A stretch of 64,000 nucleotides of DNA from Bacteroidota bacterium. GTDB lineage: Bacteria; Bacteroidota; Bacteroidia; Chitinophagales; LD1. The stretch spans positions 1-64,000 of the forward strand of contig CANJLD010000019.1 in the NCBI GenBank assembly GCA_947475165.1. The letters run 5' to 3'. Both the position numbers and the translations under genes were made by a program. The notes beneath the pieces are model-generated. The model searched no databases. It saw only the letters and a list, made by a program, of their open reading frames with translations, and was not told where the DNA came from. Below are positions 8,944 to 56,586 of this stretch, one piece after another (position 1 is the stretch's first letter; each line of letters opens with the position of its first letter).

Positions 8944-9405
8944 CTATTTATATTTCTTCATCGCTCTGTCAACCTCGCGCTTAGTATCTTTCTCTTTCAG
9001 CGAATCGCGCTTGTCGAATTTCTTTTTACCGCGACCAACTCCAACTTCCAATTTTGCAAAGCCGCGGTCGCTCATAAACAAGCGAAGCGGAATAACGCTC
9101 AAACCTTTCTCGCGAATCTTCGAGTCAATTCTTCCTAATTCTCTTTTAGTCAATAAAAGTTTGCGCATTGTAACCGGTTCATGGTTCGAATATCCGCCAT
9201 GTGAGTACTCGGGAATGTTGATGTTCTTAATAAACAATTCGCCATCGCGCATTAAGCAAAATGCTTCGCTTATGCTACCGCCACCATTGCGGATGGCTTT
9301 TATTTCGCTGCCGCGCAAAACAATACCCGCTTCGTACCGGTCAATAATTTCGAACTCGTAACCGACTCTTTTATTCTGTATGTTAATCTTATTCTGCTCA
9401 ATCAT
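8944..9405 (-). CDS. smpB: SsrA-binding protein SmpB
   Basis: Partner of tmRNA in rescuing stalled ribosomes. The 153-residue sequence has the canonical core: NKRVGYEFEIIDRYEAGIVLRG split over the first strand, GSEIKAIRNGG, the KRELGRI segment and the C-terminal basic tail (KKFDKRDSLKEKDTKREVDR). The C-terminal tail places tmRNA in the decoding centre. Its ATG overlaps the stop of the upstream thioesterase gene by four bases (ATGA), so the two are translationally coupled. No tmRNA gene is seen in this window. Confidence 0.96.
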   Translation of the reverse strand: MIEQNKINIQNKRVGYEFEIIDRYEAGIVLRGSEIKAIRNGGGSISEAFCLMRDGELFIKNINIPEYSHGGYSNHEPVTMRKLLLTKRELGRIDSKIREKGLSVIPLRLFMSDRGFAKLEVGVGRGKKKFDKRDSLKEKDTKREVDRAMKKYK

Positions 9406-9797
9406 TTCTTCAAACTCTCAAATAGTTTCTCAATCTTCTCTTTCAACAAAATTTTTTGTCCGGTTCTGCCTTCGGCAATTAAACGCGCTCCAACTTTTGC
9501 CGTGAAAGAACAATTTACTTCGTTTCCTTTCAATTCATCAATCACAGCTTCAAATAAAATCGTATCGCCAATAAAAGCAGGCGAAACGTGTTTTACATTT
9601 ACAAAAGTACCAATGCCTTCTTCATTTTCTTCTTTCATTTCCAAAACAAACAAGCGGCTGCTCCATTCTGCATCGCGCGTTAAAGCAAAAGTAGCGTACA
9701 CCGAGTGCACAGTTCCACTTTCAAAAGCAGCAGTATCTTCTTCGCGCACAATGCGCTCAAAAGCTTTTTTATCTCCGGTTTTAAATTTGAAAATCAT
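9402..9797 (-). CDS. Hotdog-fold thioesterase family protein
   Basis: A small protein of 131 residues that fits the acyl-CoA thioesterase / fluoroacetyl-CoA thioesterase-like hotdog fold. There is an N-terminal strand, the central segment VNVKHVSPAFIGDTILFEAVID typical of the fold's long beta hairpin, and a C-terminal ARLIAEGRTGQKILL strand pair. The substrate is unknown. ATG 9797 (MIFKFKTGDKKAF) is preferred over an upstream TTG. A TACATTTG box lies six bases upstream of this ATG, so its mRNA may begin at or next to the start codon. It overlaps smpB by four bases. Confidence 0.75.
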   Translation of the reverse strand: MIFKFKTGDKKAFERIVREEDTAAFESGTVHSVYATFALTRDAEWSSRLFVLEMKEENEEGIGTFVNVKHVSPAFIGDTILFEAVIDELKGNEVNCSFTAKVGARLIAEGRTGQKILLKEKIEKLFESLKK

Positions 9798-9803
9798 GGA
9801 AGA

Positions 9804-9811
9804 CAAATGTA
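9804..9811 (-). promoter_or_regulatory. Candidate -7 promoter element TACATTTG
   Basis: It matches the Bacteroidota -7 consensus TAnnTTTG exactly on the minus strand and is separated from the thioesterase ATG by only six bases (TCTTCC). That predicts a leaderless or nearly leaderless thioesterase-smpB transcript. No good -33 TTTG is visible at the usual distance. Confidence 0.45.
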
Positions 9812-9833
9812 GAAATACTGGTGGGATGAAATT

Positions 9834-10097
9834 CTATTCTTCGTTGCCGAAAACCTTTTCGTATTTCCATGCACCGTAGCTTTTTGTCCAGCCGTTTGTT
9901 TTGGAGCGGTAATAAAAATGAAGTAGCAAACCCAAAAATGCGAGTACCGTAAAGAGAATCCACCAAGCCACATAATCATTCAGAAAATACAGCAGTGCAA
10001 TGATTACTATCCATTTAAGGATGCGAAACCATAAAGGTTGAGAGCCCAATGAGAAGGCTACTTTAAATTCTCTTGAGATCGTTTCTTTCCAATCCAT
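9834..10097 (-). CDS. Small hypothetical membrane protein
   Basis: An 87-residue protein with two transmembrane segments (about 28-44 FRILKWIVIIALLYFL and 46-66) and a positively charged C-terminal tail (YYRSKTNGWTKSYGAWKYEK). The function is not recognised. ATG 10097 (MDWKETISREFKVAF) sits 10 bp downstream of the NRAMP stop, so the two are likely cotranscribed; a longer frame would overlap the NRAMP gene. The context hints at an accessory role in metal transport, but nothing in the sequence shows it. Confidence 0.65.
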   Translation of the reverse strand: MDWKETISREFKVAFSLGSQPLWFRILKWIVIIALLYFLNDYVAWWILFTVLAFLGLLLHFYYRSKTNGWTKSYGAWKYEKVFGNEE

Positions 10098-28418: not shown

Positions 28419-28664
28419 ATGAAAACACCACTTCTTGCTCCCCGCGAAAAGGCGGGAATGCTCCTGCTTGCCTGCGGCCTGAGCGAAACACAGACGGGCG
28501 AAAAATTAGGCGTAAGCCAGTCAACCATTCATGACGACCGGGGCATAACCTACAAGAAACTAAAAGCCAATTGCTTTGTAGTAGCTGTTGTTAAAGCCCT
28601 GCTGCTTGGCGAAATTACCTTAGAGGAACTTCGCTTTTTGTATGTAAGCATGGGAGCCATTTAA
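28419..28664 (+). CDS. Small helix-turn-helix protein (LuxR/sigma-70 region 4-like)
   Basis: An 81-residue protein dominated by one DNA-binding fold. LAPREKAGMLLLACGLSETQTGEKLGVSQSTIHDDRGITYKKLKA matches the four-helix GerE/region-4 pattern (REKxxLLLxAxGLSxxxxxxxLGVSxxTIxxxRxxxxxKL). No receiver or sensor domain is present. It stands alone in front of the first 21-bp tandem array (28820-29008), so it is tempting to see the array as its target, but nothing proves this. A hairpin-like CGCTTGCAAATAAGCG lies in its upstream region. Confidence 0.7.
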   Translation: MKTPLLAPREKAGMLLLACGLSETQTGEKLGVSQSTIHDDRGITYKKLKANCFVVAVVKALLLGEITLEELRFLYVSMGAI

Positions 28665-28720: not shown

Positions 28721-29122
28721 ATGAAATTGATGAAGACGGAGCCGGCTATCCTTTTGCTTTTTCTACCGGTAATGAACCGGTTGGTTCTAAGTAGCAATTA
28801 TTTTAAAGCAAGTAAAGGTAAGTTTATACAAACCTTTCATAAGTTCTCACAAAATATCACTCAGGAACTACTAAGTATCTATAAGTTTCTTCAAAGTATC
28901 CGTCAGTTTCTCCAAACCCTGAATAAGTTCTTCCAAAGTATCTGTAGGGAACTACAAACCTTCAATAAGTTTCTCCAAACCTTGAATAAGTTCCTCCAAA
29001 GTATGCGCAATGATTCATCTTTTGGGCAAAAAGCTTCAAAAACAGGGGAGGTTAGTCAAAACTCCTTCAACTCTTTTTTATTCTTTAATCAATTAAATAA
29101 ACACTTATGGCAAAATTTGTAA
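28721..29122 (+). CDS. Possible protein made of heptad repeats (array ORF)
   Basis: A 133-codon open frame runs through the 21-bp array and ends inside the next gene, overlapping it by 16 bases. It opens with a hydrophobic stretch (PAILLLFLPVMNRLVL) and then has nine 7-residue repeats of the type KFLQTLN / KFFQSIC, an amphipathic heptad pattern that could form a coiled coil. The upstream box CACCTTCG four bases before the ATG, with TTG 20 bp further up, resembles the promoter geometry of other genes here. An array of period 21 keeps any stop-free frame open automatically, so the ORF may be accidental. Confidence 0.3.
   Translation: MKLMKTEPAILLLFLPVMNRLVLSSNYFKASKGKFIQTFHKFSQNITQELLSIYKFLQSIRQFLQTLNKFFQSICRELQTFNKFLQTLNKFLQSMRNDSSFGQKASKTGEVSQNSFNSFLFFNQLNKHLWQNL
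28820..29008. repeat. Tandem array, nine exact 21-bp units
   Basis: Nine consecutive degenerate units begin every 21 bp (28820, 28841 ... 28988) with no insertion or deletion; the typical unit is AAGTTTCTCCAAACCTTGAAT. Positions AAGTT, CAAA and the final AT are the best kept. The array ends 98 bp before the start of the two-module hypothetical gene. On the minus strand it presents TTTGGAG once per unit. Confidence 0.9.
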
Positions 29123-30186
29123 GGGTGGACATGCCCGTTAACAGCCCGAAAGAAACTCTTTCGTTATGCGTAGAAATTATTGAACGCGATACCCTGCTTG
29201 GCGCGGCAAGCCCGCTGGCAGGCTTTGTAGATATGGCGGTGTTTGCCACCAAGCACACCAACGCCAACACCAAGCAAAAGGCGGGCAACAAAAGCGCTGA
29301 CGATGCGCAGACTACTTATAACATGTGTTCCAGCAAATGCGGGCTTGCAGCCGGGCAAACTAAGGATACCGAAAACAAGGTGTATTGGTTTGTGGTGCAG
29401 ATACGCGATATTCTGCTGCTTAAATACAAGGGCGTAGAAGAAACGCTGAGCCAGTATGGGTTTAATGTGGTGATTTCGCAAACCGGTGCGCGCAAGAACG
29501 TGCGGGTAGATATGCCCACCAAACCCGAAACTATGCTGGAGTTAGCCGATGCCATTATTGAAAAACATACCGAGCTTGGTGTGGCAAGTCCGCTAACCGC
29601 AGCATTGGTTGATATGACTGCCTTTGAAACTTTGGTAACCGAGGCTAATACTTTGCTTGATGACTGGAAAAGTTTTACGGAAGATGCGCAGACTTTCCAC
29701 AATCAGGCACAGGTTATTCTGGGTTATGCCGATGGGCAAACCAGCGAAACCGAAGGCACTATCTATTATTATCTGTGCATTATCCGCGACCGGTTGCTGC
29801 AAAAGTATCAGGGCACCGAAGAGGCACTTGCCCAGTGGGGTTTTAAAGTAGTTATCAGCAGCAAGCAAACAGGCCCTAAAAAAACCGAGCCTATAGTAAT
29901 AGAAGGCGAAGTAAATGCCGGTGCTACGGCTAACATTGACCTGAACAATACGGGCGTACAGGGCGATACAAAAATAAAGCTCGAAAACCCGGGCAGTACG
30001 GTGCTGCAGTATTATTTCACCAATGTAATAAACGGCATACCGGTGGGTGCTTTTGTAGAAGTGCAACCCGGTGAAACCAAAACCAAAACACCTATTGAAT
30101 TAGGCGCCAGTCAGTTTAATCTGTTTTTTACCGTGCGCAGTTTGGGCGTAGTAAAGGGACTATTTAAGGTAACAGTTGGGGTGTGA
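29107..30186 (+). CDS. Hypothetical protein with two tandem helical modules and a beta domain
   Basis: A 359-residue protein without signal peptide. Residues about 2-131 and 132-258 are two copies of one module: each begins VRVDMP, continues with an AIIEKHTELGVASPL-type helix, then a DAQ...GY/GLADGQT segment, and ends IRDxLLxKYxGxEExLxxxGFxVVIS. The last 100 residues (EPIVIEGEVNAGATANIDL onward) look like a beta sandwich. I recall similar modules in hypothetical proteins of Bacteroidota but no function. It follows the 21-bp array and is closed by a clear terminator at 30212-30242. G+C in this gene is visibly higher than in its flanks. Confidence 0.75.
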   Translation: MAKFVRVDMPVNSPKETLSLCVEIIERDTLLGAASPLAGFVDMAVFATKHTNANTKQKAGNKSADDAQTTYNMCSSKCGLAAGQTKDTENKVYWFVVQIRDILLLKYKGVEETLSQYGFNVVISQTGARKNVRVDMPTKPETMLELADAIIEKHTELGVASPLTAALVDMTAFETLVTEANTLLDDWKSFTEDAQTFHNQAQVILGYADGQTSETEGTIYYYLCIIRDRLLQKYQGTEEALAQWGFKVVISSKQTGPKKTEPIVIEGEVNAGATANIDLNNTGVQGDTKIKLENPGSTVLQYYFTNVINGIPVGAFVEVQPGETKTKTPIELGASQFNLFFTVRSLGVVKGLFKVTVGV

Positions 30187-30211
30187 TAAGTTGGCAGTAA
30201 TACTGTTTAAT

Positions 30212-30242
30212 TCCGCATCGGGTTACCGGTGCGGATTTTTTT
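30212..30242 (+). terminator. Rho-independent terminator
   Basis: TCCGCATCGG and CCGGTGCGGA form a 10-bp stem (one G-T pair) with loop GTTA, followed by seven T. It closes the 29107-30186 gene. Confidence 0.85.
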
Positions 30243-55218: not shown

Positions 55219-55368
55219 CTTAACAGCCGATAGCCGGTGATGCATCTGTACTTGTTGGTGTCGATTATCTCTTCTATTTATTTAATGATGACCTGCATAG
55301 CTGAGTCGCGAGCCACCTCCTCAAGATAGAACAAGGAGTTGCCTTTCTGTTTTAATGCAATACCCATT

Positions 55369-55641
55369 TTCGGTAGTGTCATAATTAATTTCGGTGATGT
55401 AACAGTTGTATTCGGCAGCGTTAAGTTTTATTTCGATGATGCACTTGTTTTTTTCGGGGATGTAAATATTGATTCTAACAATGTCACAATCAATTATGGT
55501 GATGTAACAGTTATTTTGGGAGTTGTCAACTTTAATTTCGGTAGTGTAAGAGTCTTTTTCGGTGACGGAACATTTAATTTCGGTGATGTAACATTTGTTT
55601 TCGGTGGTGGCCTATTAATTTTCGAGGTTTTATTGGTGATT
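55369..55641. repeat. Tandem array, at least twelve exact 21-bp units
   Basis: Units begin at 55369, 55390, 55411 and every 21 bp to 55600, with a thirteenth weak copy at 55621; there are no indels. The typical unit is TTCGGTGATGTAACATTTAAT. A TTG-initiated open frame (55339-55650) crosses it and would encode 7-residue repeats of the type FGDVTVV / FGSVKFY, an alternating pattern that suits beta strands. The array ends about 60-80 bp before the next hypothetical gene. The rest of the 540-bp stretch 55162-55701 shows only the repeat copy at 55195-55218. Confidence 0.9.
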
Positions 55642-55701: not shown

Positions 55702-56586
55702 ATGAAACAGCGAGATAATAACCGAATTAATATGGTTAACGCGGTGATAGGTTTCTGCGATAATCATTCTGCCGATACTTCCGGCATTCCTGCTTTTGCT
55801 AATACACTTTCTGTAATTAAGACGAAAATGGTTTTGGTGAATTCTTTAAACCAAATTGGAAGTGGTAATACGAAGGGTGTAACTGCAGATACGAATTTGC
55901 TGCGACAGACGATGACTGACCTTGCGCTGAAGTGCGGGAGTGCTACGCTTGCGTTTGCGAATTCGCAGCATAATAATACGCTTGCTGCGCTGGTGAATTT
56001 TACGAGGAACAAGCTGAATAAATTAAAGAAGGAGGATGTGGATGATGTGTGCCAGGGAATGAAGGATGCTACTGCAGGAAATATTGCAGGTGCGATGAGT
56101 TATGGTGTGGGGGCGAGTGATGTGAGTGATTTGCAGGCTGCGATTGATTTGTACCGGCAGAAGGTTCAGAGCCCGAGGCAGGCGATTATCAGCCGGAGCC
56201 AGGCGAAGAAGCAGGTGAGTGCGATGGTGCGGGAGGTGATTGATTTTTTGCTGGAGCAGCAGTTGGATGTGATGGTGAATACGCTGGAGATTGGGAATAA
56301 GAATTTTTGTGCCGGGTATGAGCTGGCGCGGGAGATTATTGATTTGGGAACTGTGCATACGAAAGTGAAGGGTGATGTGCGGGATGTGAATGATGTGCCG
56401 CTTGCGGGTGTGCTGTTTAGTGTGTTTGAAGCTGGGACTACTAACCTTATTGCGAAGGTGTTGACGAGTAAGAAGGGGAGGTATAGTGTGACGAAGTTGC
56501 CGCATGGAATTTTAATTTGCGTTGGGAGTTGGAGGGGTATGAGACGGTTAGCGAGAGTGATGTTCATATTAAGTTGGGGAGGGTGA
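55702..56586 (+). CDS. Hypothetical protein with carboxypeptidase-regulatory-like C terminus, probably frameshifted
   Basis: A 294-residue reading as found. Residues 1 to about 215 are helical and polar without a recognised family (MKQRDNNRINMVNAVIGFC). From about 223 a carboxypeptidase-regulatory-like beta domain starts (VKGDVRDVNDVPLAGVLFSV ... KKGRYSVTKLPHG). After PHG the frame turns to unlikely residues (ILICVGSWRGMRR). One added base near 56508 would instead continue NFNLRWELEGYETVSESDVH and end at a TAA at 56619-56621, as expected for this domain. So a one-base deletion, or a read error, truncates it. It follows the second 21-bp array. Its G-rich codons (GCG, GTG, GGG) differ from neighbours. 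Confidence 0.65.
   Translation: MKQRDNNRINMVNAVIGFCDNHSADTSGIPAFANTLSVIKTKMVLVNSLNQIGSGNTKGVTADTNLLRQTMTDLALKCGSATLAFANSQHNNTLAALVNFTRNKLNKLKKEDVDDVCQGMKDATAGNIAGAMSYGVGASDVSDLQAAIDLYRQKVQSPRQAIISRSQAKKQVSAMVREVIDFLLEQQLDVMVNTLEIGNKNFCAGYELAREIIDLGTVHTKVKGDVRDVNDVPLAGVLFSVFEAGTTNLIAKVLTSKKGRYSVTKLPHGILICVGSWRGMRRLARVMFILSWGG

Follow-up and report, generated by a model that had tools for sequence, protein, structure and literature searches.

Arrays of constant 21-bp period and variable sequence lie upstream of two gene families in Bacteroidia

On plasmids, operator, iteron and centromere arrays are helically phased and are located beside the gene of their binding protein. Among bacterial tandem repeats, a group whose length is constant (20-21 or 52 nt) but whose sequence varies was called enigmatic by Subirana and Messeguer (PMC8161180), who, in the part of the paper drawn on here, noted the two helical turns and proposed a DNA-polymerising protein or small RNAs. 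In the Borg tandem repeats, according to the section of PMC9879509 cited here, 14-38% of the intergenic units are divisible by three and unit lengths vary. The locus described below, in a 64,000-nt stretch of a Bacteroidota genome (contig CANJLD010000019.1 of assembly GCA_947475165.1; hereafter, the window), carries two arrays of 21-bp units, each in front of a gene. Its features are as follows, with the basis of each in parentheses.

28419-28664, + strand: small GerE-type helix-turn-helix (HTH) gene, 81 aa (ORF)
28721-29122, + strand: open frame across the array, 133 codons, judged non-coding (dN/dS against the G010 relative)
28820-29008, no strand: array of nine 21-bp units (lag identity)
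29107-30186, + strand: companion gene, family 1 with C-terminal domain, 359 aa (ORF, AlphaFold model)
30205-30242, + strand: terminator-like inverted repeat followed by a T run, 3' of the companion gene (by eye)
55368-55624, no strand: second array, about 12 units of 21 bp (lag identity)
55702-56586, + strand: family-2 gene behind the second array (family alignment)

The first array consists of nine units that follow one another in register with zero indels, as the original prediction, made from the window alone, had claimed; its coordinates for the HTH ORF, the open frame and the 29107 gene, the 98-bp gap between the array end and the ATG of that gene, and the location of the HTH gene directly upstream of the array were likewise correct. 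The lag-21 identity of the array is 0.595, whereas mononucleotide shuffles reached at most 0.44 (n = 2000) and Markov-1 sequences at most 0.42 (n = 20,000; z = 8.7). Because the identities at lags 63 (0.675) and 84 (0.686) exceed that at lag 21, the array contains a four-unit super-repeat. To its left, weaker units continue to about 28787, and a lag-84 block extends over 28787-29000. When the window was scanned at lags 15-50, the top stretches were the two arrays, with 0.643 (lag 42) and 0.635 (lag 21), and the third-ranked lag reached 0.46. The second array, which the original prediction did not mention, is of the same kind and ends 77 bp upstream of the family-2 gene, the final part of which diverges from its family, as after a frameshift. 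The window also contains an RNase P RNA (class A) at 1751-2122 and a tRNA gene at 137-210, both on the - strand.

The open frame through the first array had been predicted to encode an amphipathic heptad (KFLQTLN), and this claim was not supported. We compared the locus with that of G010, the one relative in which the HTH gene, array and companion gene are kept in order within a different neighbourhood. The frame at 28721-29122 gave dN 0.63 and dS 0.76 (dN/dS about 0.83), compared with dN 0.31 and dS 1.33 (dN/dS 0.24) for the 29107 gene. Moreover, 13 of 49 array rows, a set that holds three loci twice (L007/L052, L009/L124 and L020/L056), have no open frame. The frames of the window and G010 (133 and 126 codons) do have matching ends, and 75 open frames were counted over the 49 rows versus 60 expected from column permutation, which is a mild excess; even so, an array encoding a heptad-repeat protein is extremely improbable, and the arrays are mostly non-coding.

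In the AlphaFold model of the 29107 protein (pLDDT 90), the two modules foreseen in the original prediction are each of a beta-4alpha-beta type (residues about 1-125 and 128-258), and the model adds a C-terminal beta domain (about 260-359). The relatives of this protein split into two families, between which no profile similarity was detectable with hhalign; a common ancestry of families 1 and 2 was rejected for want of support from the same comparison. Family 1 proteins have one or two modules, each about 130 aa, and at times a C-terminal domain. Family 2 proteins, of about 230-430 aa, have an N-terminal helical domain, a CarboxypepD_reg domain in most aligned members and, at times, a C-terminal domain similar to that of family 1. 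Within the order, 19 of 396 genomes contained family 1, as did 18 of 395 drawn from the class, and the N-terminal domain of family 2 was present in 53 of 395 genomes of the class; a further count (274 of 396 genomes) is inflated by the common CarboxypepD_reg domain. The carriers with names are Bacteroidetes MAGs and one Sphingobacteriales MAG. One broken family-1 copy with stops occurs beside a weak array in the genome of the window (G000:C9 124860-125245).

Among known protein families, the window protein and family 1 had no match save stray weak matches in single members, and the CarboxypepD_reg part was the sole match of family 2. In the fold search, the C-terminal domain (253-359) was similar to chains of jelly-roll or cupin-like type (3x0t: Z 10.4, rmsd 3.0, 98 aligned residues), a likeness of fold only. 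Because this domain filled the match list, the helical modules were hardly covered; Pfam, with the modules' fold thus scarcely probed, returned no toxin family, the ToxN/CptN type included. Searches of plasmid and phage records with a single protein of each family found no family member, and a single pattern scan for family 2 across viral contigs found no relative.

To quantify the association of arrays with these genes, we used a detector that called an array when the ungapped lag match reached 0.60 or more over 84 bp, at periods 10-100, within 1 kb of the gene. The original prediction had made a search for arrays before homologues of the 29107 protein its check, and the outcome was positive: with both families pooled, 73 of 92 scored genes had a period-21n array (hereafter, 21n array) within 1 kb upstream, compared with 14 of 671 control genes. 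Downstream 21n arrays were found for 2 of the 92. The upstream frequencies were 19/23 in the first set and 12/17 in the class-level hold-out for family 1, and 21/25 and 21/27, respectively, for family 2. The controls comprise 2/471 in samples of ten other genomes and 12/200 on contig C1 of the window's genome (G000), a contig that itself bears three family genes. Across 20 regions that surround family genes (about 327 kb from 11 genomes), all 18 of the 21n arrays were those upstream of family genes, and three of the regions had no 21n array at the detector threshold. The distance from array to gene ranged from 2 to 639 bp.

The scored genes without an array were L006, L015, L022 and L127; L190, L194, L200, L201 and L210; L096, L102, L104 and L108; and L248-L251, L255 and L257. 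Weak arrays below the detector threshold are present at L006, L015 and L022. Eight clear family members lie outside the 92, and their addition gives an upstream array in 76 of 100: L029, L031 and L053 have one, and L105, L109, L112, L017 and L023 have none upstream, with a 21n array downstream at L105 and L109 and a period-62 array downstream at L112. Also outside the 92 are C-terminal-domain-only or weak matches (L010, L011, L013, L132-L136, L145, L147, L202-L204, L214 and L215), loci at a contig end or with <250 bp of upstream DNA (L005, L113, L114, L116, L193 and L207), L117, whose match is confined to the common CarboxypepD_reg domain, L206, which nearly duplicates L192, and L238, the same DNA as L055 (100% over 1421 bp). 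Loci retrieved twice were counted once, and matches without a retrieved locus were left unscored except for three paralogues in G401; the G401 paralogues had arrays in 5/5 (threshold 0.56), three of them beyond the scored set. In a third group with weak family-1 similarity or cut genes (L132, L135, L203, L214 and L215), a 21n array lies directly 3' of the stop codon.

The arrays are not confined to family genes throughout. On G000 contig C1 (318 kb), 12 of 19 arrays were of the 21n type, and several were located between convergent genes or before ordinary genes. Such arrays far from family genes could be orphans of lost cassettes or could reflect another use of such arrays. On the same contig, a hypothetical gene of 247 aa outside families 1 and 2 (9218-9961, - strand) lies about 90 bp behind a 21n array. 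Arrays with a period of 41/82, not 42, also occur, at L062-L066 (G005:C1 35518-35913 and 87366-87851) and at G000:C1 124879-125148.

The unit sequence varies from array to array, whereas the repeat length is constant. Across 53 arrays with 604 units, we counted 3312 substitutions from the unit consensus against 33 indel bases, and 40 of the 53 arrays were indel-free. A laxer gap penalty raised the number of indel bases to 419, most of them in insertions paired with deletions, and the true indel:substitution ratio is somewhat higher than counted because the detector favours indel-free arrays. With this bias borne in mind, the counts support the earlier suggestion that spacing is selected over sequence. 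The G+C content of the arrays ranges from 10% to 59% (n = 52), and no core word (6-8-mer) beyond chance was shared across 17 G000 arrays. Measured from a conserved left anchor, the ATG lies 386 bp away in the window and 365 bp away in its G010 relative, a difference of exactly 21 bp. Likewise, two 93% identical paralogues in G401 have spacers that are alike by eye and units that are different, with a period of 21 in both. The period is compatible with two helical turns. A-tract phasing was considered and rejected, since the W autocorrelation has no helical peak, and a promoter scan with a Bacteroidetes consensus revealed no consistent position.

Constancy of this kind might also arise through neutral minisatellite turnover, in which an ancestral cassette was inherited and in-register exchange homogenised the units and transmitted the period, with no selection. 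In-register exchange by itself maintains a repeat period, and the units within an array are more alike than the units of paralogues, as in concerted evolution. Yet the sequence has been randomised across loci and the period is still 21, and simulated arrays were indel-free in 6/31 cases at an indel:substitution ratio of 0.05 and in 0/21 at a ratio of 0.1, compared with the 40/53 observed under the bias of the detector. A symmetry tied to protein type, described next, would also be unexpected. We therefore regard neutral turnover as an unlikely explanation.

Dyad symmetry of the arrays, assessed by column permutation (P < 0.05), went with the architecture of the linked protein. The arrays of module-only genes were symmetric in 19 of 26 cases, in contrast to 5 of 45 for family 2 together with the module genes that have a C-terminal domain (Fisher, 1.6e-7). 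This rule was derived from the first set and then applied to the hold-out, where it was weaker (5/10 versus 2/22, P = 0.019); because the rows are phylogenetically non-independent, these P values are to be read as guides. The window array, whose gene encodes a C-terminal domain, is not dyad-symmetric (z = -1.75), as the rule predicts.

The position of the repeats directly before the gene raises the question of whether the array acts as RNA; a transcribed repeat leader or trailer might then bind the linked protein or regulate it, much as in type III toxin-antitoxin systems. The ATG lies 2 to 60 bp beyond the end of several arrays, which are thus probably transcribed. Against such a role, the symmetric positions showed no excess of covariation (the family-2 part covers 19 of 24 rows) and no G-T bias, with a G-T : A-C mismatch ratio of 0.856 versus 0.875 expected from composition. 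There was no loop at either symmetry axis, complementarity continuing without a drop near the axes. The Rfam matches in the window at the gathering threshold were the RNase P and tRNA only, and the linked proteins matched no toxin family. RNA hairpins were rejected as the source of the symmetry on the grounds of covariation and G-T bias; the pattern points to a property of duplex DNA, and a function as RNA seems distinctly improbable.

Array similarity tracked protein similarity (Mantel r = 0.54 and 0.41, values reached by 0 of 2000 permutations), although the correlation no doubt derives partly from shared descent. Between L026 and L124, 19 of 21 consensus bases were kept at dS 1.62; the spacer was conserved above chance (0.73 versus 0.56) and the left flank was at chance. 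By contrast, the arrays of the close paralogues L195 and L208 were similar only at the chance level (10/21) at dS 0.52, which is hard to reconcile with a sequence-specific binder. In family 2, the conserved columns were clustered within the unit, as in a binding site (lag-1 autocorrelation 0.198 versus -0.053, sd 0.031), and no such clustering was seen in family 1.

The HTH gene offers a further candidate, in line with the original prediction: a GerE-type protein that would bind the array as its operator at the loci that have it. Six homologues were detected among 60 genomes, and in four of them (the window, G010, G017 and G004), a 21n array begins just behind the gene; no array was seen behind the homologues in G046 and G009. 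In G017 and G004, the ORFs that come after the homologue and its 21n array belong to neither family 1 nor family 2 (L169, 1402-2736, and L171, 1474-3103, respectively, each with HTH homologue, array and ORF in a row); they possibly represent further companion families. The HTH gene is under purifying selection, with dN 0.55 and dS 1.24 against G010 (dN/dS 0.44). However, when a profile of the four HTH genes was run near the family loci, it matched the window and G010 genes and made one weak further match, so the HTH protein cannot serve most arrays. The sites of GerE-type dimers are typically dyad-symmetric, which the window array is not. The HTH protein thus genuinely accompanies some of the arrays, where it is a candidate binder, and its use of the array as an operator even there is quite doubtful.

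The interval between PorP and rsmE is 39 bp in G017, whereas in G000 it holds an array, a family-1 gene and a terminator-like repeat, indicating that the two were acquired or lost here as one unit. In G004 (L175), a 21n array alone lies upstream of rsmE, where G000 has the array plus the family-1 gene. L192 (G458) and L206 (G659), from two species, differ at one position in 831 bp, array included, and this block sits in a near-identical stretch of about 1.2 kb, which suggests a recent transfer of the cassette.

Our best explanation, given somewhat less than an even chance, takes the array to be a non-coding DNA element that acts in cis and constitutes a unit together with the adjacent gene; on this view, it carries a nucleoprotein lattice made by the linked protein or a partner. 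From the association with the two families, the held period and the symmetry rule, we infer that a DNA-binding partner might assemble on the array so that each 21 bp takes one protomer or dimer, which would place neighbours on the same helix face about two turns apart. Contacts between neighbours along one face would be in keeping with a period that stays constant over unrelated sequences. If sequence read-out were weak and locus-specific, the unit sequence could drift and the spacing could not. The linked protein is the likeliest binder because the symmetry of the array goes with its architecture: module-only proteins may sit on the units as symmetric dimers, and proteins with a C-terminal domain and family-2 proteins may be arranged head to tail. 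The lattice would then regulate the gene linked to it or organise the DNA locally; the variable array-gene distance and the arrays 3' of genes in the third group argue against a simple promoter element.

Several findings tell against this explanation. The pI of the companion proteins spans 4.7 to 9.8, and none matched a known DNA-binding family, which would allow for a partner, for instance the HTH protein at the loci that carry it. Some 21n arrays of G000 lie apart from family genes, the 17 G000 arrays compared lack a core word, and the distance between array and gene is variable. A stronger form of the lattice explanation, possible and yet more doubtful than not, is that of a two-part cassette widespread in Bacteroidia, consisting of a 21-bp lattice and its own lattice-binding protein from an unnamed family, which would sense spacing and symmetry more than sequence; each copy of the cassette could then keep a private, fast-changing array. 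If so, the enigmatic constant-length repeats of other bacteria may have comparable, undescribed partners. If the lattice is real, the arrays would be a clear case of selection on DNA spacing and symmetry and not on sequence. Specific families beside enigmatic repeats, together with a checkable symmetry rule, make a reader of such repeats directly testable.

Like plasmid operator, iteron and centromere arrays, the present arrays adjoin the gene of a candidate binder; unlike them, they are chromosomal, occur in several different copies per genome and are linked to a protein with no recognised DNA-binding fold. They share with the Borg repeats, as far as the cited section of PMC9879509 describes these, the occurrence of many fast-evolving arrays that are partly intergenic, and differ in having one unit length and fixed neighbour genes. 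Type III toxin-antitoxin systems (ToxIN and CptIN), as presented in the relevant part of PMC4627078, similarly carry short, highly locus-variable tandem repeats directly upstream of a gene, a position seen here, at variable distance, for 73 of the 92 scored genes. In those systems, the repeats measure about 36-45 nt and function as folded RNA, whereas the present ones are 21 bp with a symmetry that fits duplex DNA; in addition, no toxin family was matched here, and the third group has its arrays after the gene.

The closest resemblance is to the repeats of PMC8161180, which, in the part of that paper used here, are also non-coding and 20-21 nt long, with unit sequences that are unrelated and a length that is constant, as in our 53 arrays with their 33 indel bases. 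In the literature searched, including that part of PMC8161180, no description of the linked gene families or of the symmetry rule was found, and that part names no partner of the repeats. The same part of the paper reports short sequences conserved across the arrays of a species, in contrast to the 17 G000 arrays, which share no core word. Unlike the repeats as they are described there, the present arrays are tied to two gene families, and their symmetry goes with the type of protein encoded next to them.
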